From contig NZ_JAATVY010000020.1 in NCBI RefSeq assembly GCF_011947195.1, forward strand, positions 1-64,000: 64,000 bases of DNA, given 5' to 3'. Positions 6,499 to 28,563 of the stretch are shown in pieces. Below the pieces are notes generated by a model. The model made no database searches, was not told where the DNA came from, and worked only from the letters and a program-made list of their open reading frames with translations. How positions within the stretch are numbered: the first letter of the stretch is position 1; every line of letters begins with the position of its first letter. The position numbers were made by a program, and so were the translations under genes. The DNA is from Planosporangium thailandense (GTDB lineage Bacteria; Actinomycetota; Actinomycetes; Mycobacteriales; Micromonosporaceae).

Positions 6499-9400
6499 AT
6501 GATTGTCACTGACGGGCGTAGCGGGAGGGCCATGCGCAGCGGCGTGTTCGAGCGGTTCACGGAGGACGACGGCGAACTGCGGGTCGAACTGCACGTCCAG
6601 CCGGCGATCAACTACGCGCTCGTACACAACCGGGTACCCGTCGTCCGGCACCTGTCGGTCACCAACCGGACCGGCCAGCCGGTCACCGACCTGCGGATCA
6701 CGCTCGAACTGCTCGGCCCCGACGGCCCCCTCGCCCCACAGTGGACCCGCTTCGTGTCCGCGCCCGTACCGCCCGGCTCCACCGTCGGCTGGGAGGACTT
6801 CACCGAGTTCGTACCCGACCACGGGCGTCTACGCGACACCGACGAGGCGTTCCCGGTCGACTACCGGCTCACGGTCGTGCGACCCGGACAGCCCGACACC
6901 CGGCTGGTCGCGCCGTCGTCGGTGCTCGCGCACAACGAGTGGTTCAACAGCCCGGCCCTGTACGACAGCCTGGCCGCGTTCGTGCAGCCCAACACGCCCG
7001 CGGTGGATGCGACGCTGCGGGCCACGGCGCGAATCCTCCTCGACCGCACCGGCTCCGGGTCGCTGCAGGGCTACCAGGCCGGACCGGAGCGCGCCGCGCA
7101 CATCGCCGGCGCGGTGTACGAGGCGCTGCGCCAGCTCGGCATTCACTACCAGCACGTACCGGCGTCCTTCGAGCACACCGGACAGAAGGTGCGCACCACC
7201 GCGGCGGTGCTCGACGGCCGGATGGGCAACTGCCTGGACCTGTCGGTGACGTACGCCGCCTGCCTGGAAGCCGCCGGGCTGCACCCGCTGATCTGGCTGA
7301 CCGGCACCCACGCGTTCGCCGGCTTCCTGCTCGACGCCGACCGGCTCAGCGACGCCGTCGTGACCGAGGCCAACCTGCTCATCTCGATGGTCGAGGCGGG
7401 CCGGACCGTACCCGTGGAGCTGACCCGGATCGGTCCGGGCGCCACCTGCGCCGACTTCACCGACGCCGTCCGGGCCGGCCTGGAGCACTTCCGGGCCCGC
7501 CGCCACGACCTGCAGGGCGTGGTCGACGTGCACCTCGCGCACCGGTGCGGCATCCGCCCGCTACCCTCGACGGCCACCGTGGACGGCGGCCAGCCCCCGC
7601 GGCCCGCCGAGCCGACGGCCGCGCCCGCCGCCGGCTCCATCGACCTTCCCGACGGGGTGGCCCGCGCACAGCTGCGCAAGCGCGCCGAGGCCGGCGAGGC
7701 GCCCGAGCGCGCCGACGACTCACCCCGCCGCGTGCAGCAGTGGAAACGGTCCCTGCTCGACCTCAGCCTGCGCAACCCGCTGCTCAACCTGCCCACCCGC
7801 GGGCGCGGGCTCGACCTGCACGTACCGGCCGGCGCACTGGCCCTGCTCGACAGCCTCGTCCACGAGGGCGGCCAGATCCAGGTCATCCCGCAGGACGCGA
7901 TCAGCCAGCTGCACCGGCTCGCCGGGACGGTGCGGGCCCAGGATCTCGACCCGGACGTCCTGGCCCGGGAGCTGCGCACCGACCGGCGCATCTACGGCGC
8001 GGTCAGCGAGCAGAAGTACGTGTCCACCATGCGCGACCTCCAGCGCGAGGCCCGCACGATGGAGCAGGAGACCGGCAGCAACTACCTCTACCTGACGATC
8101 GGCACGCTCGTACACACCCGGAGCAACGGCGCCGAGGCGCACGCCCCGCTGTTCCTGGTTCCGGTACGCGTCGAGGGCGGCACCGGCCGCCGGCCGTACT
8201 TCTTCGCGGCCGACGGCCCCGAGCTCGCCGCGCCCAACCACTGCCTGATCGAGTGGCTGCGCCGCCGGCACGGGGTGGAGATCCCGGAGCTGACGAACCC
8301 GGTCGTGGACGACTACGGCATCGACATCGCCAAGACCCTCGCGGCGATCAACGGAAGGCTCGTCGACAGCCGCCTCAACTACCGCATCGACGAGCGCGCC
8401 AGCCTGCGGCTGCTGCAGTTCTCGACGTACCGGATGTGGCGCGATCTCGCCGACCACTGGCCGGCTTTCGTCGAGAACCCGGTCGTCCGCCACCTGGTCG
8501 ACCCCGGCACGGCGCGGTTCGACGACCCGGCCGGCACCGACGGAGCGCACGTCGACGAGGCGGCGCTACACGTGCCGATCCAGGCCGACGGCTCCCAGCT
8601 GCAGGCCATCGCGATGGCCGAGCAGGGCCGCTCGTTCGTCCTCGAGGGGCCGCCCGGCACCGGCAAGTCACAGACCATCACCAACCTGATCGCCCGCGCC
8701 GTCGCCGCCGGGCGCTCGGTGCTGTTCGTGGCCGAGAAGCAGGCCGCGCTCGACGTCGTCAAGCGCCGGCTCGGCCAGGTCGGGCTCGCCCCCTTCGCCC
8801 TCGACCTGCACGGACGCAAGCAGTCGATGAACGCGATCCGCGAGCAGCTGCGCGAAGCTCTCGACCAGCGCGAACGCGGCGGCGAGGCGGGCTTCACTGC
8901 CGTCGAGACCGGCTACCGCGCCCGGCTCGCCCCGCTCGCCGGGTACCCGGCCCGCGTCCACACCGCCGGCCGGACGGGCCTGTCCGCCTGGTCGGCGTAC
9001 GAGGCGACCCTCGCGTACGGCGACGGGCCGAGCGCCCCGGTGCCCGGCAGCTATCTCGCCGCCGCCGGTCACGAGCGGGTGGAGCAGGCGCTCCGGTCGC
9101 TGCCCGCCGTCGCCCGGGCGGCCCGGCTGCGCCCGCACCACCCGTGGGCGCTCAGCGGCCGCCGGAGCCTCGACGGCCTGCACGCCGGCGCCGCGACGCA
9201 GGTCGCCGCCGAGCTGGAAGAGGTCCGGGGCCTGGTGAGCGAGCGGCCGCATCTGATCCGGCTGCTGCGCGGGCTGCCCAGCCCCACCGCGATCGGCGCG
9301 TTCCTGCCGGCCGCCCGGCTCGCCGCCCGCGGCGACCTGCCGGACCGCGAGGTCGTGGCGCGGGCCGCCGATCCACGCTGGGAGCCGGCGCTCGCACGGC

Positions 9401-12400
9401 TGACCGCGGAGCTGGACCGGTTCCGCGCCGAGTACGCCGCCGAGCTCGCGGCCTTCTCCCCCGAGGTGTTCAGCCTCCCCGACCTGCCGCACCTGCACGC
9501 GGAGGCCCGGGAAGCGGCGACCCGCCTGTTCGGCAAGGCCCGGCGCCTGCAGGAGGTCGCCGACCGGCTCACCCCGTACCTGCGGCCCGGCGCCACGGTG
9601 GCCGCCGACGACGTCGAGCGGGTGATCGGCCGGCTGCTGCACGCCGGGAGCGCCGCGTCCACCCTCCACCGGCGCATCGAGGAGCTCGGCGGGCTGGTCC
9701 TCCCGGACGGCTGGCTGCCCACCGGGCCGGCCGCGCCCGCCGAGCTGGTCCACGCCCGCCAGGCGAGCGTGGCCAGCCGCCAGCTCGTCGCCGGGCACCC
9801 GGTGGCGTGGGCGGCCCTGCGCGCGGGCGTCACCGACAACGACGTGCGCGTGCTGGAACGACTCGCCGCGGCCTGGCGGGCCTGGGCCGGCATCCTGCGC
9901 AGCGGCCCGCCCCAGCTCCGCCTGTGGACGGCCGGCCTGCACTGGCTCGACGCCTGGGACCGGGACGGCTCGGCCTGGCTGACCGACCTGGGCGCCGAGG
10001 AGCTGGCCCCGGTGCGGCACTGGGCGGCGGTCCTCGCCCACACCGACGTGCTGGCCGAGGCCGGTCTGACGGACCTCGCCGACCAGCTGCTGCGCGGCGA
10101 GGTCGACCCGGACCTGGCCGAGGAGGCGTACCGGCGCGGGCTTGCGCGGGCCTGCCTCGCCGAGCGGCTGCGCGCCGGCGGGCTGGACCGCTTCGACCCG
10201 ACGCTGATCGACAAGCACATCGAGCAGTTCGAGGCGGCCGGCCGGCAGCTGCGCGCCGCCCTGCGCGACCAGCTGCCCTCGACCCTGGTACGCCACCGGG
10301 CCCGCGCCACCGACGGCCAGGGCGACCGGCTCGCCGAGTTCGCCGCCGAGCTGCGCCGCAAGCGCGGCGGCCGGTCGTTCCGGGACCTGTTTTCGGCCTA
10401 CCCCGACCTCGTGCTGGCGCTGACCCCGTGCGTGCTGGTCAGCCCGGCCTCGGCGGCCAACTTCCTGGCGCCCACCGCGGCGCGGTTCGACCTGGTCGTG
10501 TTCGACGAGGCGTCCCAGATCCGGGTGGCGGAGGCGGTCGGCGCGATGGGGCGCGGCCGGTCGGTGGTCATCGTCGGTGACTCCCGCCAGATGCCGCCGA
10601 GCACGATGATGCAGGCCGCGGCCGGCGGCGACGAGGCGGCCGGCACGGCCGGCGACAACGGCCCGGCCGAGGACCTGGAGAGCATCCTCAGCGAGGCCGT
10701 CGAGTCCGGTCTCCCCCAGCGGTGGTTGACGTGGCACTACCGCAGCCGCGACGAGTCGCTCGTCGCCTTCTCCAACCGGTACTACTACGACAGCAGGCTG
10801 TCGACCCTGCCCGCCCCGGGCCCGAGCAGCACGGCCGGCATCGGCTGGCGCCGGGTCGACGGCGCCTTCGACCGGGGCGGTACCCGTACCAACGAGGTGG
10901 AGGCCCGCGCGGTCGTCGCGGAGATCGCCGCCCGGCTGCGCGACCCGGCGACCGCCGACGACTCGATCGGCGTGGTGACCTTCAACATCCAGCAGCGTGA
11001 CCTCATCCTCAACCTGCTGGAGGACAGCTCGGACCGGTTGATCCGCAACCGGATGGCACCCACCGCGGTCGAGCCGATCTTCGTCAAGAACCTGGAGAAC
11101 GTACAGGGGGACGAGCGGGACCTGATCCTGTTCTCGTTGGCGTTCTCCACCAACCCGGAGACCGGGCAGCTTCCGTTGAACTTCGGGCCGCTCAGCCAGG
11201 TGGGCGGGGAGCGCCGGCTGAACGTCGCGATCACGCGGGCCCGGCGGCAGGTCGTGCTGTTCTCCTCCTTCGACCCGGCCGACATCGACCTGTCGCGCAC
11301 CACGGCCACCGGTACCCGGCACCTGCGGGCCTACTGCGAACTGGCCGCCGCCGGCGCGGACCGCCTCGGCGACCTCGCCCCCGGCGCCCGCGCCGACCAC
11401 GACCGGGTCCGGGAGGCGGTCGCGGACGCGATCCGGGCCCGCGGCCACGAGGTGGTCACCGGGTACGGGCTGTCGGACTTCACCGTCGACATCGCGGTAC
11501 GCGCCCCCGGTTCGCCGCGCTGGCAGGTCGCCGTGATGCTCGACGGTCCCCGGTGGAGCGCGCGGCCGACCGTCGCCGACCGGGACGGCGCGCCGCTGCT
11601 GCTGCGTACGGTCATGGGCTGGCCCGAGGTCGTGCGCTGCTGGCTGCCGGCCTGGGTCCAGGACCGCGAGGCGGTGCTGGACCGCATCGACGCCGCCGTG
11701 GCCCAGGCGGTCGCCGCCGCCGCAGCGCAGGCGGTCGCCGCCGCCGCAGCCGAGCGGGACGCACCGGCCATTCCCGCGCGGCCCGCGGTCGACCCGCCGG
11801 AGGAGAGCGGGATCCCGGACCCGCCGACCCCGTCCGCCGACGCCGGCCCGCTCGACCTCGTCGCGCGCGCGAGAAACGGCGCGAGGCGGGACGCAGCCGC
11901 CAGGAGCGGGCCGGCCCGCAACGGCGCGGTGACCGGACGCCGAGCCCGTTCGCAGGCGACGCCGGGCCGGCGCCAGGTGCCCGAGCAGGTGCTGGTCGCG
12001 TCGATCGACGCGCCGCCGGCGCCCGCCGCCGAACGCAGACCGGGCGGCGCCGGCGCGCCGTTCGTGCCGTACACGCCGACCCCGCTCGGCAGCCAGTCCG
12101 ACATCGACGCCCTCGGCACCGACCAGCGCGTACGCAAGCTGGTCCGGGCCAGCCTCAACGAGATCGTCGCCGCCGAGGGTCCCATCGAGCAGCATCGACT
12201 CGCGCGCCTGACGCTGGCCCGGTTCGGCTTCGCCAAGATCCGGGAGGACCGCCGCAACGCCGTCCTGGCCCTGGTCGATCCCGCCACGCTCCGCCACCAC
12301 GAGGGTGTCGGCACCTTCGCCTGGCCGAGCGGGCTCGATCCCCGGCGGTGGAACGGCTTCCGCACCACGCAGTCCCGGACCGACCGCGCCTTCGAGGAGA

Positions 12401-12612
12401 TCGCTCCCGAGGAGATCGCCAACGCCGTGCGGTACGCGCTGACCGCGGCGCCGGAGCTGACCGAGCAGGAGCTGTTCCGCAGCACGCTGGAGCTGCTCGG
12501 GTACCAGCGCCGGACCGAGAAGATCACGAAGCTGCTGCGGTACGGCCTGCTGACGGCGCTCACCAGTGGCCGGGTGGTTCACGGCGGCCACGGCCGCTAC
12601 CTGCTCAGCTGA
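6499..12612 (+). CDS. DUF4011-type superfamily 1 helicase with transglutaminase-like and nuclease-fold domains
   Basis: This protein has 2037 residues. Residues 1-200 look beta-rich. Residues 235-285 resemble a transglutaminase-like core with C245 (GNCLDLS), H271 (GTHAF) and D279. A DUF4011 signature (LLDLSLRNPLLNLP) begins near residue 416. The SF1 helicase core has Walker A GPPGTGKS at 717-724, Walker B FDEAS at 1335-1339, a QGDERD motif near 1536 and NVAITRARR near 1575. A restriction-endonuclease-like segment follows, with D1664 and D1682 (VDIAV ... VMLDGP). A disordered Ala/Arg/Pro linker leads to a C-terminal DUF3320-like winged-helix region. This architecture occurs in single-protein anti-phage candidates and in uncharacterised actinobacterial helicases. 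ATG 6499 sits one base after AAAAGGG; ATG 6532, behind GGGAGGG, is a realistic alternative. Function in defence or repair is inference. Confidence 0.85.
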   Translation: MIVTDGRSGRAMRSGVFERFTEDDGELRVELHVQPAINYALVHNRVPVVRHLSVTNRTGQPVTDLRITLELLGPDGPLAPQWTRFVSAPVPPGSTVGWEDFTEFVPDHGRLRDTDEAFPVDYRLTVVRPGQPDTRLVAPSSVLAHNEWFNSPALYDSLAAFVQPNTPAVDATLRATARILLDRTGSGSLQGYQAGPERAAHIAGAVYEALRQLGIHYQHVPASFEHTGQKVRTTAAVLDGRMGNCLDLSVTYAACLEAAGLHPLIWLTGTHAFAGFLLDADRLSDAVVTEANLLISMVEAGRTVPVELTRIGPGATCADFTDAVRAGLEHFRARRHDLQGVVDVHLAHRCGIRPLPSTATVDGGQPPRPAEPTAAPAAGSIDLPDGVARAQLRKRAEAGEAPERADDSPRRVQQWKRSLLDLSLRNPLLNLPTRGRGLDLHVPAGALALLDSLVHEGGQIQVIPQDAISQLHRLAGTVRAQDLDPDVLARELRTDRRIYGAVSEQKYVSTMRDLQREARTMEQETGSNYLYLTIGTLVHTRSNGAEAHAPLFLVPVRVEGGTGRRPYFFAADGPELAAPNHCLIEWLRRRHGVEIPELTNPVVDDYGIDIAKTLAAINGRLVDSRLNYRIDERASLRLLQFSTYRMWRDLADHWPAFVENPVVRHLVDPGTARFDDPAGTDGAHVDEAALHVPIQADGSQLQAIAMAEQGRSFVLEGPPGTGKSQTITNLIARAVAAGRSVLFVAEKQAALDVVKRRLGQVGLAPFALDLHGRKQSMNAIREQLREALDQRERGGEAGFTAVETGYRARLAPLAGYPARVHTAGRTGLSAWSAYEATLAYGDGPSAPVPGSYLAAAGHERVEQALRSLPAVARAARLRPHHPWALSGRRSLDGLHAGAATQVAAELEEVRGLVSERPHLIRLLRGLPSPTAIGAFLPAARLAARGDLPDREVVARAADPRWEPALARLTAELDRFRAEYAAELAAFSPEVFSLPDLPHLHAEAREAATRLFGKARRLQEVADRLTPYLRPGATVAADDVERVIGRLLHAGSAASTLHRRIEELGGLVLPDGWLPTGPAAPAELVHARQASVASRQLVAGHPVAWAALRAGVTDNDVRVLERLAAAWRAWAGILRSGPPQLRLWTAGLHWLDAWDRDGSAWLTDLGAEELAPVRHWAAVLAHTDVLAEAGLTDLADQLLRGEVDPDLAEEAYRRGLARACLAERLRAGGLDRFDPTLIDKHIEQFEAAGRQLRAALRDQLPSTLVRHRARATDGQGDRLAEFAAELRRKRGGRSFRDLFSAYPDLVLALTPCVLVSPASAANFLAPTAARFDLVVFDEASQIRVAEAVGAMGRGRSVVIVGDSRQMPPSTMMQAAAGGDEAAGTAGDNGPAEDLESILSEAVESGLPQRWLTWHYRSRDESLVAFSNRYYYDSRLSTLPAPGPSSTAGIGWRRVDGAFDRGGTRTNEVEARAVVAEIAARLRDPATADDSIGVVTFNIQQRDLILNLLEDSSDRLIRNRMAPTAVEPIFVKNLENVQGDERDLILFSLAFSTNPETGQLPLNFGPLSQVGGERRLNVAITRARRQVVLFSSFDPADIDLSRTTATGTRHLRAYCELAAAGADRLGDLAPGARADHDRVREAVADAIRARGHEVVTGYGLSDFTVDIAVRAPGSPRWQVAVMLDGPRWSARPTVADRDGAPLLLRTVMGWPEVVRCWLPAWVQDREAVLDRIDAAVAQAVAAAAAQAVAAAAAERDAPAIPARPAVDPPEESGIPDPPTPSADAGPLDLVARARNGARRDAAARSGPARNGAVTGRRARSQATPGRRQVPEQVLVASIDAPPAPAAERRPGGAGAPFVPYTPTPLGSQSDIDALGTDQRVRKLVRASLNEIVAAEGPIEQHRLARLTLARFGFAKIREDRRNAVLALVDPATLRHHEGVGTFAWPSGLDPRRWNGFRTTQSRTDRAFEEIAPEEIANAVRYALTAAPELTEQELFRSTLELLGYQRRTEKITKLLRYGLLTALTSGRVVHGGHGRYLLS

Positions 12613-12913
12613 CCAGCCGGTAACACCCGGGAAAACAGTGCCTACCGTCGATGCCCCCATCCGTTACTCTGATCGCGTGCCCGCTGACTTTCCGCATACG
12701 TCGGCGTTGACGCTGCCGGAGCGCGACCCACCGGGACGCGACCGGCCCGGGCGCGATCAGTCCAGACGCGACGGCCCGCACGACGGACCCGGATCCGCAG
12801 CTGTAAACCCGCCGTTCACACCTGCCCGCGCGGCGCGGACGGCTTCCCTGAACTGCTCAACCATCCCTGACCGGTGCCGATGACACTCACGAGGCCGAGG
12901 GAGAGGAGGCGCC
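12613..12913. other. Intergenic region with a possible leaderless small ORF
   Basis: A TANNNT-type -10 (TACTCT, 12665-12670) lies 6 nt before GTG 12677, the arrangement of leaderless actinobacterial genes. It would open a 68-codon Arg/Asp/Pro-rich frame ending at 12883. The composition does not resemble a folded protein, so the -10 may simply serve the GGDEF gene at 12914. I see no hairpin terminator for the helicase gene here. Confidence 0.3.
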
Positions 12914-14401
12914 ATGCGCTGGCCCCGCAGTGCCTCGTCGGCCGCCCCGGTCCATGCCGGGTTCATCGGCGTGACCCTGATGGCCACCATCTCGTACGCC
13001 CTCGCCGACCCGGCCGGGCGCACCGTGGTGTACGCGCTGGTCACGCTCGTGCCGGTCACCACCTTCCTGCTCGCGCTCCGGGCCGGGCACCTGCCTGACC
13101 GCGTACCGTGGGGCGCCGCCATCGGCGGCCTCGCCCTGCTCACGTTGAGTCACCTGGTGTGGCCGGACTGGATCCCCGCCCACCACCTCGGCCGGGCCGA
13201 GGGTTCGCTCACCGACCTCACCATGAACGTCTCCCACACGCTGTTCCTCGTGGGCACGGGCGCGGCGCTGCGCCGGCACGCGGTCCACGACAGCGGCGGG
13301 CTGCTGGACGCCGCGATGGTCGGTCTGTGCGCGGGCGGTCCACTGTGGGAGTGGGTGATCCGGCCGCACCTCGGGCCGGACGCGTCACCGTTCGGCCAGG
13401 TCATGCTCCTGCTGGACCTGCTGACCCTCGCCGGGGTGGGCGGCTGCCTCCTGCGCATCGGCGTCACAGCGAAGAAGGCGCGCGGACCGCTCGGGTACCT
13501 GATCGCCTGCGACGCGTTCACGCTGCTCGCCAACGCCACCGCGGTCCTGACCGTGCACGGCCCCTCGGTGTGGACCGCCGAGTTCATGATGCTGGGCTAT
13601 CTGACCCTCGCCGCGGCACCGTTGCACCCGGCCGCCCCGTACTGCACCCTGCCGGAGCCCACCGCCGGCCGGGCGACGGGTCACCCACATCTCGGCTGGC
13701 TCGGCGCCGCCCTGTGCGCCAACCCGCTGATCGCCGCCGTGCAGACCATTCGCGGCGGTGCCGGCTCCAGCCTGCTGCTGCCGGTCGGTACCCTGCTGGT
13801 CATCCCGCTGGTGCTGCTGCGCTTCCAGCAGCTTTCCGCGCAACGGGACAGGGCCGAACGGACCCTTGCGCACCACGCGAGCCACGACGAACTGACCGGC
13901 CTGTACAACCGGCGGCACATCGTCGCCGAGATCGACCGCGCGCTGGACGAGGTCCGGCAGGGCGCGCTCGACGGGATCGCCCTCGTGCTGTGCGACCTCG
14001 ACGGGTTCAAACCGGTCAACGACCGGATGGGCCACCAGGCCGGCGACCTGGTCCTGCAGACCGTCGCGGCGCGGCTCGCCGGCTGCCTGCGCGGCGACGA
14101 CGTGGTCGGCCGGCTCGGCGGCGACGAGTTCCTGATCCTCTGCCGGGGCGCACCGGAGCGCGCGGTGGCGCAGCTCATCGAGCGCATCCCGCGAGCGGTG
14201 GGCACGCCGGTGGAGCTTGCGGGGGTCACCGTGACCGTCGGGGTCACGATCGGTTCGGCGATCGCCGGCACCGCCACCACCCTGGACCGGGACGCGCTGA
14301 TCGGGCAGGCCGACGCCACCATGTACGCCGGCAAGGCGGGGCGGCGCCGCCTCCCCGGCCCGGGTACCACCCCTCGGGTGGCCATCGAGACGTACAAGTA
14401 G
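12914..14401 (+). CDS. Membrane-anchored GGDEF diguanylate cyclase
   Basis: This 495-residue protein has an N-terminal half of hydrophobic helices (about eight to nine segments up to residue 310) and a cytoplasmic GGDEF domain. GGDEF is at 402-406 with an RGDD inhibitory site five residues earlier, so it should make c-di-GMP from two GTP and be product-inhibited. The cyclase opening motif HDELTGLYNRR and the LCDLDGFKPVND metal/substrate segment are intact. No EAL domain is present. The ATG at 12914 follows a strong GAGAGGAGG ribosome-binding site. The membrane half probably senses an unknown signal. The domain pattern is the same as in the twin genes at 25308 and 27007, but sequence similarity in the sensor half is low. 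Confidence 0.88.
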   Translation: MRWPRSASSAAPVHAGFIGVTLMATISYALADPAGRTVVYALVTLVPVTTFLLALRAGHLPDRVPWGAAIGGLALLTLSHLVWPDWIPAHHLGRAEGSLTDLTMNVSHTLFLVGTGAALRRHAVHDSGGLLDAAMVGLCAGGPLWEWVIRPHLGPDASPFGQVMLLLDLLTLAGVGGCLLRIGVTAKKARGPLGYLIACDAFTLLANATAVLTVHGPSVWTAEFMMLGYLTLAAAPLHPAAPYCTLPEPTAGRATGHPHLGWLGAALCANPLIAAVQTIRGGAGSSLLLPVGTLLVIPLVLLRFQQLSAQRDRAERTLAHHASHDELTGLYNRRHIVAEIDRALDEVRQGALDGIALVLCDLDGFKPVNDRMGHQAGDLVLQTVAARLAGCLRGDDVVGRLGGDEFLILCRGAPERAVAQLIERIPRAVGTPVELAGVTVTVGVTIGSAIAGTATTLDRDALIGQADATMYAGKAGRRRLPGPGTTPRVAIETYK

Positions 14402-23609: not shown

Positions 23610-25054
23610 GCGCCCCGCTGCCCGCCGGTACGCCCACGCAGCAGCTCGTGGGCGGCGCCTGGACCGCTGGTGAGCAGGGCGACTTCGCCGTGCTCAACCC
23701 GTCGACCGGGGAAGAGATCGCCCGCGTGCCGCGGGCCGGCCGGGGTGACGTGGCCCGCGCCGTGGACGCCGCGGCCGCGGCGCTGCCCGGGTGGGCCGCC
23801 ACCGCGCCCCGCGAGCGCGCCGAGGCGCTGCGCCGGATGTTCGAGCTGATGACCGCGCGGCGCGAGGACCTCGCGTACCTGATGTCGCTGGAGATGGGCA
23901 AAGCGCTGTCGGATGCCCGGGGCGAGGTCACGTACGCGGCGGAGTTCTTCCGCTGGTTCTCCGAGGAGGCGGTCCGCGTCGGCGGCGAGCTGCGGATGGC
24001 GCCGTCGGGCGCGAACCGGATCCTCACCTTCAAGCGGCCCGTCGGCGTCGCGCTGCTGCTGACGCCGTGGAACTTCCCCGCGGCGATGGCCACCCGCAAG
24101 ATCGCCCCGGCGCTGGCCGCGGGCTGCACCGTGCTGCTCAAGCCCGCCGAGGACACGCCGCTGACCGCGTTGCTGCTGGGTCAGCTGCTGGCCGAGGCCG
24201 GCGTACCGGACGGCGTGGTCAACGTGCTGACCACCGACCGGCCCGGTGAGGTGGTGGAGTGGGCGCTCGCCGACTCCCGCGTACGGAAGCTGTCGTTCAC
24301 CGGCTCCACCGGGGTGGGGCGGATCCTGCTCAAGCAGGCCGCCGACCGGATCGTCAACGCCTCGATGGAGCTGGGCGGCAACGCGCCGTTCATCGTGCTC
24401 GACGACGCCGACCTCGACGCGGCCGTCGAGGGGGCGATGCTGGCCAAGATGCGCAACGGTGGTCAGGCCTGCACCGCCGCCAACCGGTTCTTCGTCCACC
24501 ACAGCGTGGCCGCGGACTTCGCCGACCGGCTGGCGCAGGCGATGGGCGCGTTGCGGATGGGGCCCGGTACCGACGAGAAGACCCAGCTCGGCCCGATCAT
24601 CAACGCCAAGCAGGTCGACGGCATCGCGCAGAAGGTCGACGCGTCCGTCGCGGCCGGCGCGAAGGTGCTCCTCGGTGGAGCGCGGCACGAGGGCCCGGGG
24701 TTCTTCTACCCCGCCACGGTCCTCACCGACGTGCCGGCGGACGCTCCGGCCGGCCGGGAGGAGATCTTCGGCCCGGTCGCGGCGATCGTCCCCGTCGCCG
24801 ACGAGGACGAGGCGGTACGGCTGGCCAACAGCACCGACATGGGGCTGTCCGGCTACGTCTACACCCGTGACCTCGCGCGGGGCCTGCGGATCAGCGAGCG
24901 GCTCGAGGTCGGGATGGTCGGCCTCAACCGCGGCCTGGTCTCCGACCCGGCCGCCCCGTTCGGCGGTGTCAAGGAGTCCGGCCTCGGCCGGGAGGGCAGC
25001 CACGAAGGGATCGAGGAGTACCTCGAGACGACGTACGTCGCCACCCAGTGGTGA
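23606..25054 (+). CDS. gabD: Succinate-semialdehyde dehydrogenase
   Basis: This 482-residue aldehyde dehydrogenase has catalytic C289 (GGQACTAANRFF) and E255 (MELGGNAP). It oxidises succinate semialdehyde to succinate, the last step of the GABA route into the TCA cycle. ATG 23606 overlaps the gabT stop by 4 bp. It ends the plus-strand operon that begins with the permease. Confidence 0.87.
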   Translation: MSAPLPAGTPTQQLVGGAWTAGEQGDFAVLNPSTGEEIARVPRAGRGDVARAVDAAAAALPGWAATAPRERAEALRRMFELMTARREDLAYLMSLEMGKALSDARGEVTYAAEFFRWFSEEAVRVGGELRMAPSGANRILTFKRPVGVALLLTPWNFPAAMATRKIAPALAAGCTVLLKPAEDTPLTALLLGQLLAEAGVPDGVVNVLTTDRPGEVVEWALADSRVRKLSFTGSTGVGRILLKQAADRIVNASMELGGNAPFIVLDDADLDAAVEGAMLAKMRNGGQACTAANRFFVHHSVAADFADRLAQAMGALRMGPGTDEKTQLGPIINAKQVDGIAQKVDASVAAGAKVLLGGARHEGPGFFYPATVLTDVPADAPAGREEIFGPVAAIVPVADEDEAVRLANSTDMGLSGYVYTRDLARGLRISERLEVGMVGLNRGLVSDPAAPFGGVKESGLGREGSHEGIEEYLETTYVATQW

Positions 25055-25149
25055 CCGTCTCGACCGGCTGAGCTCCGCGCCGTGCGGGCCGGGTCGACGC
25101 ATCCGCGTCGGCCCGGCCCGCTGCGCTTCACCCGGCCTCGTGAGCGTCA

Positions 25150-25256
25150 TTATCATGATCGACCGCGCCGACGACACGGGCATCCACCCACTGTGACCGC
25201 GTCCTATTACGAGGGTCACGGCCGGTTTCGGTCAGCATCATGATCATGGTGCCGAT
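25150..25256 (+). repeat. Leader element copy A upstream of first twin GGDEF gene
   Basis: A segment of about 107 bp aligns without gaps to 26838-26944 in front of the second twin gene. The first 11 bases TTATCATGATC are identical. A 46-nt core starting at 25191 differs at only 2 positions. It contains an inverted repeat GTGACC...GGTCAC (25193-25217 region), flanked by outer TGATC/GGTCA-like arms. It could be an operator, a duplicated promoter or a structured 5' leader. Confidence 0.8.
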
Positions 25257-25307
25257 CCGGCGTCAGTGAGTACTGAGGGGCCGGGGAGCACTGACGGGTC
25301 GGGCGCG

Positions 25308-26831
25308 ATGACGCATGGTTGGGGACGTACGGTATCCGCGCTGGTCGCCGCCGCCGTCGCCGTCGCGGCATACCTGGCGATCCAGCTGACCCGACCCGGC
25401 TCACCGGCCCTGATGACCGTCCTCACCCGCGGACTCGCCGTCGCGCCCGCCCTGGTCAGCGGAGTCCTGTGGCTACGCGCCGCACGATGGGCGTCCGGCC
25501 GCGCCAGGTTGGCGCTGCGGCTGGCCAGCGGCGCCATGCTCGGATGGGCGGCCGGCGAGGTGATCCGAATCGGCGACTACCTGCTCCACGGGCCCCGGCC
25601 CGGCGCCCCGCTGTCGGCGACTCTCCTCTTCCTCGCCACCACGCTGCTGGTGCCGGTGGCCGTACTGCTCCTGTTCGGCGCCCGGAACTTCACCAGCCTC
25701 CGTACCGTGCTCGACGCGCTGCTCATCGCCGCCAGCACGCTGTATGTGGCCTGGTCCGTCGCGCTGCACACGGTGTACCGGGCGCGGGGCGGCGGTGTCG
25801 GCGCGCTGACGTCGCTGGGGTACTCCCTGGCGGACATCGCCTTCATCGCCATCGTGCTCATCCTGGTCCGCGACGCCGCTCCGATCCTGCGCACACCGGC
25901 GGCCCTCGTCGCGACCGGACTGATCCTCAAATGCGCCAGCGACTTCGCCTCGTCCTACTTCTCGGTGCGGGCCACTGCGTCGCAGGGCGCGCTGACCGAC
26001 ATCGGCTGGCTCGTGGCGTTCGTCGCGATCGCCCTCGCGACGCCGCGCCGCCCCGAGATCGCCGGCCTGGCCGAAGGCCCGGACGGCCAGTCCGCCTGGC
26101 TGTTCCTGCCGTACGCGCCGTTCCTGCTCGCGCTCGTCACCGCCGGTGTGCTGTTCGTCGCCAAGCACGGACACGTGGATCCGACCCAGTACCTCATCAG
26201 CGTGGTGCTGGTCGTACTGATCTTGTTGCGGCAACTGATCACACAGCACGACAACCGGGCCCTGACCCGCCGGCTGAAGACCGCCGCCGAGGACCTGCGG
26301 TACCGCGCCTACCACGACCCGCTGACCGGAATGGCCAACCGGGACAAGTTCATGGAGTCCGTCGAGCGCCGACTCGCGGCCCCCACCGGCCCCCAGATCG
26401 CCGTGCTCTACATCGACCTCGACGGGTTCAAACCAATCAACGACACCTTCGGCCACGCCGCCGGCGACCGGGCCCTGGCCGCCGTCGCCGAGCGGCTCAC
26501 CCGCGCCACCCGGACCGGTGACCTGGTGGCGCGGCTCGGCGGCGACGAGTTCGCCGTCCTGCTCCCCGACCTCCACTACATGCCGGACGCGCACAGTGTC
26601 GCGCAGCGGATCCAGTCCGCACTCGACACCGATCTCGACATCACGGACGGGCCGGTACGGGTGGGCGCCAGCATCGGCGTCGCCTACGGCCGCCCCGGCC
26701 GCATCGGCCTCGGCGAGCTGCTCCGCAACGCCGACGTGGCCATGTACACCGCCAAGCTGCAGGGCCGCCGCCGCACCGTCACCTTCGACCCCCGGCTGCT
26801 GACGCGCCGCCGGCTCGACCAGGCCTCCTGA
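25308..26831 (+). CDS. Membrane GGDEF protein, first of a tandem pair
   Basis: This 507-residue protein has about eight N-terminal hydrophobic helices and a C-terminal diguanylate cyclase domain. GGDEF is at 411-415, with an RTGD inhibitory site five residues before it and LYIDLDGFKPIND intact. It should synthesise c-di-GMP under control of its membrane half. ATG 25308 is chosen because it aligns with the paralogue start and keeps a similar distance from the shared leader; GTG 25266 is in frame and cannot be excluded. The next gene is a clear duplicate, with conserved stretches such as RYRAYHDPLTG and VRVGASIGVAYGRPG. Confidence 0.85.
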   Translation: MTHGWGRTVSALVAAAVAVAAYLAIQLTRPGSPALMTVLTRGLAVAPALVSGVLWLRAARWASGRARLALRLASGAMLGWAAGEVIRIGDYLLHGPRPGAPLSATLLFLATTLLVPVAVLLLFGARNFTSLRTVLDALLIAASTLYVAWSVALHTVYRARGGGVGALTSLGYSLADIAFIAIVLILVRDAAPILRTPAALVATGLILKCASDFASSYFSVRATASQGALTDIGWLVAFVAIALATPRRPEIAGLAEGPDGQSAWLFLPYAPFLLALVTAGVLFVAKHGHVDPTQYLISVVLVVLILLRQLITQHDNRALTRRLKTAAEDLRYRAYHDPLTGMANRDKFMESVERRLAAPTGPQIAVLYIDLDGFKPINDTFGHAAGDRALAAVAERLTRATRTGDLVARLGGDEFAVLLPDLHYMPDAHSVAQRIQSALDTDLDITDGPVRVGASIGVAYGRPGRIGLGELLRNADVAMYTAKLQGRRRTVTFDPRLLTRRRLDQAS

Positions 26832-26837
26832 AGCTCT

Positions 26838-26944
26838 TTATCATGATCAACCGGCCGCCGACGGGAGCCCCCCACCCGCTGTGACCGCGCCCTATTACGA
26901 GGGTCACGGCCGGTTTCGATCAGCCAGATGATCATCGTGCCGAC
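26838..26944 (+). repeat. Leader element copy B upstream of second twin GGDEF gene
   Basis: This is the partner of the element at 25150-25256. The distance from TTATCATGATC to GTGACC is 43 bp in both copies. In this copy the outer inverted repeat is clearer: TGATCAACCGGCCG at 26844-26857 faces CGGCCGGTTTCGATCA near 26907-26922. It begins 6 bp after the stop of the first twin gene, so each gene carries its own regulatory copy rather than sharing one operon promoter. Confidence 0.8.
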
Positions 26945-27006
26945 CTTGATGCAGTACGTGCAAAGTTGCCCTCCGCAGGGACGGCACAGCTGAAGGAGCG
27001 GGCGCC

Positions 27007-28563
27007 ATGGCCTCAGGTCGCAACCGGGAGATCCGGGCGCTCGCCGCCACCGCCGTCACGGTGTACGTCGGGATCCAGACCGGCCGACCCGGCTCGCCCA
27101 CGGTGGTGGCCGCGCTCACCGGCGGGCTCACGATCGCCGCCGCGCTCGTCACCACCGTCGTCTGGCTGCGGGCGTCGCGCTGGGCATCCGGACGTGCCAG
27201 GCTGGGGCTGCGACTGATCGGTATCGCCATGGCCGGCTGGGCGACCGGCGACGCCATCTGGATCGGCGGCTACGCGGCCCACGGCGCGCGCGGCGCGAAC
27301 GTACCGCCGCTGGCAGACCTCGCGTTCCTGATCCCGATGGTGCTCGGCCCGCTGGCCATGGCGCTGCTCTACGGCACGCGCCGGATCGCCAGCATCCGCA
27401 CCCTGCTCGACGCGCTGCTCATCACCTGTGCGCTGCTGTACATGGCCTGGGCGTTCGTGCTGGGCCCCACGTACCGCGCCCACGGCGGCGGCACGGGCGC
27501 GTTCGCCCTGCTCATCTACCCGCTCGCCGACGTGGTCATCGCGAGCACCGCGCTCCTGCTGGTCCGCGACGCCGTTCCCGCCATGCGCGTACCCGCACGG
27601 CTCGCCGCGGCCGGGCTGATCCTGATGTGCCTCAGCGACGTCACCTACGCCTATCTGTCGGTACGCGGCAGCTACCAGCCGGGGCGCATCAGTGACCTCG
27701 GCTGGTTCCTCGGCCTCGTGGTGATGGCCGTCGCCGCGCCGCGCCGACAGGAGCTGACCGGCTGGTCGGCGAGCGCCGACGCCGAGCCGGGCTCGCTGTT
27801 CCTGCCGTACGTGCCGTTCGGCCTCGCCCTCGTCACCGCCATGGCGTTGTTCGTTGCCCGGCACGGACAGGTCGAGCCGGGCCTGTACGGCATCAGCATC
27901 GCGCTCGTGATCCTGGTCGTGGTCCGGCAACTGGTGGTGCTGGCCGACAACCAGCGACTGACCCGGCGGCTCACCCGCGCCGTCCGGGACCTGCGGTACC
28001 GGGCCTATCACGACCCGCTGACCGGACTGGCCAACCGGGACAAGTTCATGGAGTCGGTCGAGCACGCCCTCGCCGGCCCGTCGGGACGGCAGGTCGCCGT
28101 GCTCTACATCGACCTCGACGGGTTCAAACCGATCAATGACAGTCTCGGCCACGCCGTCGGCGACCGGGTGCTGTCCGTCGTCGCGGAGCGACTGGCCGGC
28201 GCCGCCCGGCCCGGAGATCTGGTGGGGCGGCTCGGCGGTGACGAGTTCGCCGTCCTGCTCCCGGACCTCCGCCACCCGCCGAGCGCGCTCGGAGTCGCCC
28301 AGCGGATCCAGGCCGCGCTGGACGCAGACCTCGACGTCGACCTCGACCTCGACGTCGACCTCGACGTCGACGTCGACGGTGCGCCGGTACGGGTCGGCGC
28401 GAGCATCGGTGTCGCCTACGGCCGCCCCGGCCACATCGGCCTCGGCGAACTCCTCCGCAACGCCGACGTGGCCATGTACACCGCCAAGCTCCAGGGCCGC
28501 CGCCGCACCGTCACCTTCGACCCCCGGCTGCTCGCCGGCCGCCCGCTCGGCCGGGCATCCTAG
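27007..28563 (+). CDS. Membrane GGDEF protein, second of a tandem pair
   Basis: This 518-residue paralogue of the preceding gene has the same membrane half and a GGDEF domain with GGDEF at 410-414 and RPGD as inhibitory site. Compared with its twin it has about 12 extra residues, an alternating Asp-Leu/Asp-Val stretch from residue 441, inserted between the GGDEF helix region and VRVGASIGVAYG. ATG 27007 has GAAGGAG upstream. The pair arose by duplication that included the leader DNA. Confidence 0.87.
   Translation: MASGRNREIRALAATAVTVYVGIQTGRPGSPTVVAALTGGLTIAAALVTTVVWLRASRWASGRARLGLRLIGIAMAGWATGDAIWIGGYAAHGARGANVPPLADLAFLIPMVLGPLAMALLYGTRRIASIRTLLDALLITCALLYMAWAFVLGPTYRAHGGGTGAFALLIYPLADVVIASTALLLVRDAVPAMRVPARLAAAGLILMCLSDVTYAYLSVRGSYQPGRISDLGWFLGLVVMAVAAPRRQELTGWSASADAEPGSLFLPYVPFGLALVTAMALFVARHGQVEPGLYGISIALVILVVVRQLVVLADNQRLTRRLTRAVRDLRYRAYHDPLTGLANRDKFMESVEHALAGPSGRQVAVLYIDLDGFKPINDSLGHAVGDRVLSVVAERLAGAARPGDLVGRLGGDEFAVLLPDLRHPPSALGVAQRIQAALDADLDVDLDLDVDLDVDVDGAPVRVGASIGVAYGRPGHIGLGELLRNADVAMYTAKLQGRRRTVTFDPRLLAGRPLGRAS
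28327..28374 (+). repeat. In-frame GAC(C/G)TC hexamer repeat inside GGDEF gene
   Basis: Eight consecutive hexamers of the form GACCTC or GACGTC encode alternating Asp-Leu/Asp-Val. The equivalent place in the paralogue at 25308 has no expansion. The change is a multiple of three, so the frame is kept. It looks like a replication-slippage minisatellite. Confidence 0.85.

Follow-up and report, generated by a model that had tools for sequence, protein, structure and literature searches.

A repeated leader before twin GGDEF genes of Planosporangium thailandense as a probable duplicated promoter region of the flagellar class, possibly with a regulator site

In the stretch of Planosporangium thailandense DNA analysed here (the window, 64,000 nucleotides), two GGDEF genes are arranged head to tail, and each is preceded by a copy of the same leader, which raises the question of what these leaders do and why they are so alike. 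The original prediction, made from the letters alone, described an ungapped repeat of about 107 bp with a 46-nt core differing at two positions and a GTGACC/GGTCAC pair, and took it for an element under selection, either a two-dyad operator or a structured RNA that might sense the cyclase product. The description was borne out, with 83 of 107 positions identical over 25150–25256 and with the core and the paired hexamers present (Table 1). From the comparisons given below, we consider the leader to be, probably, a promoter region of the flagellar class that has been duplicated and may also hold a regulator site; this reading and the alternatives weighed against it overlap, and their probabilities do not add to one. 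The ATG of the first gene (W1) was set by alignment with a sister-species gene, and the second gene (W2) carries at 28318–28383 an in-frame GACGTCGACCTC-type repeat that gives an (Asp-Leu/Val)n insert in its GGDEF domain.

Table 1. Coordinates in the window of the twin genes, their leaders and the sites discussed in the text.
Feature	Position	Strand	Details
FliA/WhiG-type promoter, third GGDEF gene	12856..12883	+	perfect CTCA-N16-GCCGAT; sole 10/10 match in the window, both strands
Third GGDEF gene	12914..14401	+	495 aa; Pfam GGDEF E 3e-38
Leader of gene 1 (W1)	25149..25260	+	85/112 identical to 26837–26948, ungapped
Box A, copy 1	25151..25163	+	TATCATGATCGAC; candidate sigma-70 −10 (TATCAT) or regulator site
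46-nt core, copy 1	25191..25236	+	44/46 vs copy 2; best core
Dyad GTGACC-N15-GGTCAC, copy 1	25193..25219	.	GTGACC 25193–25198, GGTCAC 25214–25219
FliA/WhiG-type promoter, gene 1	25231..25258	+	GTCA (25231–25234), 16 nt, GCCGATCC (25251–25258); 9/10, shuffle p 0.017
GGDEF gene 1 (W1)	25308..26831	+	507 aa from likely ATG; Pfam GGDEF E 8e-40 on longer ORF; TIGR00254 E 3e-40
Near-identical patch of gene 1	26721..26800	+	1 mismatch in 80 vs 28453–28532 of gene 2
Leader of gene 2 (W2)	26837..26948	+	begins a few bases past the gene 1 stop codon
Box A, copy 2	26839..26851	+	TATCATGATCAAC; exact-pattern search, sigma-70 scan
46-nt core, copy 2	26879..26924	+	offset 1688 from copy 1
Dyad GTGACC-N15-GGTCAC, copy 2	26881..26907	.	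pattern not special to these leaders
FliA/WhiG-type promoter, gene 2	26919..26946	+	ATCA (26919–26922), 16 nt, GCCGACCT (26939–26946); 8/10
GGDEF gene 2 (W2)	27007..28563	+	518 aa; Pfam GGDEF E 3e-38

The downstream end of the leader carries a promoter-like xTCA-N16-GCCGAY. Sites were scored as matches out of ten to CTCA-N16-GCCGAT, and a score of 9/10 is reached eight times in the window, both strands counted. The −10 box of W1 agrees with GCCGAT and that of W2 departs from it at one of the six scored bases, while the twin −35 boxes are each one base off the genus form CTCA and the spacing is exactly 16. The W2 site is not significant alone (shuffle p 0.17); its position before the start codon is as in its relatives. 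These relatives were sought in a genus set of four genomes, namely the own genome (G000), that of a sister species (G001), G002 and G003; the sister species holds four such genes (Ga, Gb, Gc and Gd). Each of the six family genes in the genus has its best CTCA-N16-GCCGAT site 77–88 nt upstream of the ATG, with scores of 9 (W1), 8 (W2), 9 (Ga), 9 (Gb), 7 (Gc) and 8 (Gd); the further shuffle p values are 0.014 for Ga, 0.010 for Gb, 0.73 for Gc and 0.14 for Gd, and three of the six sites (W2, Gc and Gd) are not significant singly. A combined p of 2e-9 was set aside, given the choice of the six outside genes by eye and the kinship among the sequences. Without such selection, 23 relatives in other genera of the family were counted: nine score at least 9 and 13 at least 8, and eight of the 11 that show 40% identity or more score at least 8.

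Flagellar-class (FliA/sigma-28/WhiG) promoters likewise consist of two short boxes with a −10 of GCCGAT and a 16-nt spacing. Their consensus is given as TAAA / GCCGATAA in the portion of PMC8325347 available to us, from which the present sites differ in the −35 box (G/ATCA here and mostly CTCA in the genus) and, for gene 2, in a −10 of GCCGAC. A FliA/WhiG-class sigma factor would, on this likeness, read the downstream end of the leader and transcribe each diguanylate cyclase gene, with predicted starts at about 25264 (gene 1) and about 26952 (gene 2), both downstream of the dyad.

The same site recurs at its fixed spacing before other GGDEF genes and before flagellin genes. The window's third GGDEF gene has the perfect match (at 12856) 58 nt ahead of it; directly 5′ of that gene is an ORF at 6499–12612 (2037 aa; DUF4011, AAA_11/AAA_12 helicase, MTES_1575 nuclease). 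Among the 39 GGDEF matches in the genus genomes, 33 lie outside the twin-gene family, and these were scanned from 200 nt upstream to 100 nt inside the longest open frame. A site of at least 9/10 was found at 13 of the 33, as against 4 of the 68 genes that served as controls (Fisher p 6e-5; four genus genomes), a test that overstates independence because the 33 genes include orthologues across the four genomes. The 13 positive genes themselves form orthologue sets, in which the boxes are kept and the spacers vary, and therefore do not count as independent cases; some of the sites fall within mechanically called ORFs or near the called start. At other spacings (11–15 and 17–21) 0–3 of the 33 genes scored at least 9, and on the antisense strand at 16 two did. 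Of the four control matches, inspected post hoc, two are flagellin genes themselves, and the other two (L254 and L258) look like the own promoters of GGDEF genes. Four of the eight flagellin-family (PF00669) matches in the genus carry the site 94–100 nt before the matched domain (three at 10/10 and one at 9/10, the carriers being the three strongest matches and one weaker), and the other four have no 9–10/10 site; two of the three PF00669 matches of the own genome are so preceded. Several other GGDEF genes of the genus seem, by these matches, to share the same kind of promoter. In named records, where 8 of 80 loci were skipped, scores of at least 9 were reached by 2 of 8 GGDEF loci from Micromonosporaceae, 1 of 12 from other Actinomycetota and 5 of 52 from elsewhere, a weak signal that counts against a family-wide rule; the protein-alignment scan of the named genomes, which left out the own genome, gave among the matches listed mostly distant GGDEF domains.

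Why the two leaders are so alike was addressed by comparison with the coding DNA. The original prediction had argued that the leader is better conserved than the genes and hence under selection. Over the first 300 codons W1 and W2 are indeed less alike (67% nucleotide identity, with 66 of 111 fourfold sites the same), but their 3′ ends rival the leader in likeness: the coding DNA contains 74 windows of 46 nt at 44/46 or better, the longest stretch with at most two mismatches measures 83 nt in coding DNA vs 47 nt in the leader, a coding run of 41 nt is free of mismatches, and the patch near the end of gene 1 is almost invariant (Table 1). Since the likeness of the 3′ coding ends equals or exceeds that of the leader, the step from conservation beyond the genes to selection fails. 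Coding identity equal to leader identity, which the prediction had equated with simple recent duplication, is thus seen locally, at the 3′ ends, and not along the whole gene.

The leader is also narrowly distributed. The own genome holds two copies, with the next match at E 0.004, and as a DNA query at E 1e-4 the leader found no copy in the other 353 genomes of the family (1 of 354 positive, the own genome); within the genus only the own genome of the four matched, and the sister species lacks the element. Copies unlinked to GGDEF genes, which the prediction had named as evidence against itself, were found neither in the own genome nor in those of the genus and family. In the sister species, three of the four relatives form a tandem array at the corresponding position, following an aldehyde-dehydrogenase-like end. 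The tandem genes Ga and Gb (locus L040) share 133 identical variable codons in one run (p 0.0005, the lowest value obtainable with 2000 permutations, uncorrected), their identity spanning a long 3′ stretch, and are, to judge from their sequences, a clear case of gene conversion. For W1/W2 the corresponding run is 11 identical variable codons (p 0.0035, uncorrected), and for W1/Ga it is 14 (p 0.013, uncorrected). Within the first 300 codons, Ga is closer to W1 (81% nucleotide identity) than W2 is, whereas in the leader the order is reversed, W1 being closer to W2 (0.85) than to Ga (0.35) in one 60-column window. Since the leader of W1 is nearer to W2 and its codons are nearer to Ga, the leader seems younger than the genes, and this looks like the pattern expected from conversion or copying. 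As the sister-species copies are clearly converted, recent homogenisation can account for much of the leader identity, and we suggest that the likeness of the W1 and W2 leaders is largely owed to such exchange between tandem genes, to which a measure of constraint on the boxes may have added.

Plain recent duplication or conversion might then be the whole story, the core having no function beyond that of a minimal promoter. We give this somewhat less than an even chance: gene conversion does occur in the gene family, the 3′ coding patches match the leader in likeness and the element is missing in the sister species, but the mismatches between the leaders are not randomly spread (permutation p 0.0002) and box A is retained in Ga. 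The clustering of mismatches fits a constraint on the boxes and a short conversion tract equally well.

The same two observations, the clustering of mismatches outside the boxes and the box A kept in the sister-species orthologue Ga, also speak for a two-dyad operator under strong selection, served by a dedicated regulator and with the sigma class incidental. By eye, the TGATC boxes moreover covary, with ATCATGATC/TGATCAT in the twin leaders vs ATCACGATC/TGATCGT in Ga. Such an operator is nevertheless doubtful, as the dyad is lost in the sister species (the leaders of Ga and Gb both have gaps in 19 columns that take in most of the dyad) and its pattern is frequent even in genomes that lack the leader: with up to one mismatch allowed, GTGACC-N15-GGTCAC has 29–43 sites per genome in all four genus genomes, compared with 9–13 for the backwards control. 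Given these numbers, the dyad is no guide as a regulon motif. BldD, whose half-sites read GTGAC/GTCAC, was one candidate considered. The exact box A pattern, TATCAYGATCRAC, has two matches in the own genome (both leaders), one in the sister species (leader Ga) and one each in two other genomes; box A was thus set aside as a regulon motif too, its exact matches in the own genome being the two leaders only, and the want of a wider copy set there also weighs against the operator. The TcrA box of Actinoplanes missouriensis, as described in the accessible part of PMC12691653, offers a parallel from the same family in being a regulator site upstream of developmental promoters; its motif, the direct repeat GCA(A/C)CCG-n4-GCA(A/C)CCG, reaches at best 10/14 in the leaders, no better than in flagellin loci (11/14). 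In a duplicated flagellar-class promoter region, which we prefer, box A (TATCATGATC) and the dyad, the latter centred about 59 nt before the expected start, both lie upstream of the predicted promoter and may form a putative activator or repressor site. As the leader is a promoter region, an operator-like, regulatory role is plausible, and this half of the predicted function may hold.

The other half, an RNA that senses c-di-GMP, found no support from Rfam, from folding or from the sister species. GEMM-I and GEMM-II are c-di-GMP riboswitches that stand as leaders before c-di-GMP genes, and the present element shares this position ahead of a c-di-GMP gene but lacks a covariance-model match and a significant fold. 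A search of 24900–27100 against Rfam at E 10 returned six weak matches, none to a c-di-GMP family and none to GEMM. The folding z-scores were −1.03 (W1), −1.68 (W2), −0.97 and −0.45 (two sister-species leaders), which gives no support in these four leaders for stability beyond composition; a structured RNA in the 5′ UTR downstream of the promoter was likewise discarded (z +1.05, −0.94, +1.17 and −1.15). Because the predicted promoter lies downstream of the dyad, a flagellar-type transcript would exclude the dyad element, and a structured leader or riboswitch would need a sigma-70-type promoter at box A for its transcription. A sigma-70-like −10 (TATCAT) does occur there in both leaders (two found vs 0.1 expected from shuffles), so that a second, longer transcript including the dyad is possible, and both core differences can be read by eye as changes from a G-U to a standard pair. 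In the sister species, however, the −10 reading drops its last T (TATCAC) and most dyad columns are gapped in Ga and Gb, and no relative turned up among the 353 other family genomes. We regard a structured RNA as very improbable. With only two near-identical copies, arguments for RNA and operator alike are hardly open to covariation. The case also carries a caution, in that duplicated, gene-converted promoters can pass for conserved RNA.

If a FliA/WhiG-class sigma does read these sites, c-di-GMP synthesis would be turned on alongside flagella or spore motility. A parallel comes from Rubrobacter, where, according to the available part of PMC8325347, WhiG-type promoters lie upstream of DGC/PDE genes, which would likewise place cyclase genes under a flagellar-class sigma. 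RsiG, the known c-di-GMP-dependent brake on WhiG, holds the sigma with c-di-GMP in Rubrobacter and is absent from Actinoplanes, which has WhiG (same part of PMC8325347); in contrast to Rubrobacter, none of the four genus genomes gave an RsiG (PF22802) match, although the same model matched in 40 of 60 class genomes as a positive control. Since the genus has no RsiG match, its cyclases can hardly feed back on the sigma through RsiG. A further-reaching version, in which a flagellar or sporulation sigma drives a battery of cyclases free of the RsiG brake and their product feeds back through a putative c-di-GMP-dependent regulator at box A and the dyad, seems to us unlikely. Beyond the Rubrobacter paper we found no literature report that places cyclase genes of Micromonosporaceae under a flagellar sigma; for the FliA of Actinoplanes it may be in print (Jang 2016, Hashiguchi 2020). 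Mutants lacking FliA/WhiG-family sigma genes exist in the laboratory relative Actinoplanes missouriensis (PMC13293333). If the promoter reading is true, a large part of the genus's cyclase gene complement would be wired to the flagellar/spore sigma though RsiG was not found, which raises the question of how c-di-GMP acts on the motile stage of RsiG-less actinomycetes and makes the GGDEF genes behind flagellar-class promoters in this genus worth following.

As to the sigma factor itself, the FliA_WhiG model (TIGR02479) matched above its cut-off in G001 and G003 and not in G002 or the own genome, the latter yielding two fragments, at the start of contig C59 and the end of C34. FliA/WhiG-like fragments also lie at contig ends in the sister species (C11 and C43), as though near-identical copies had broken the assembly.
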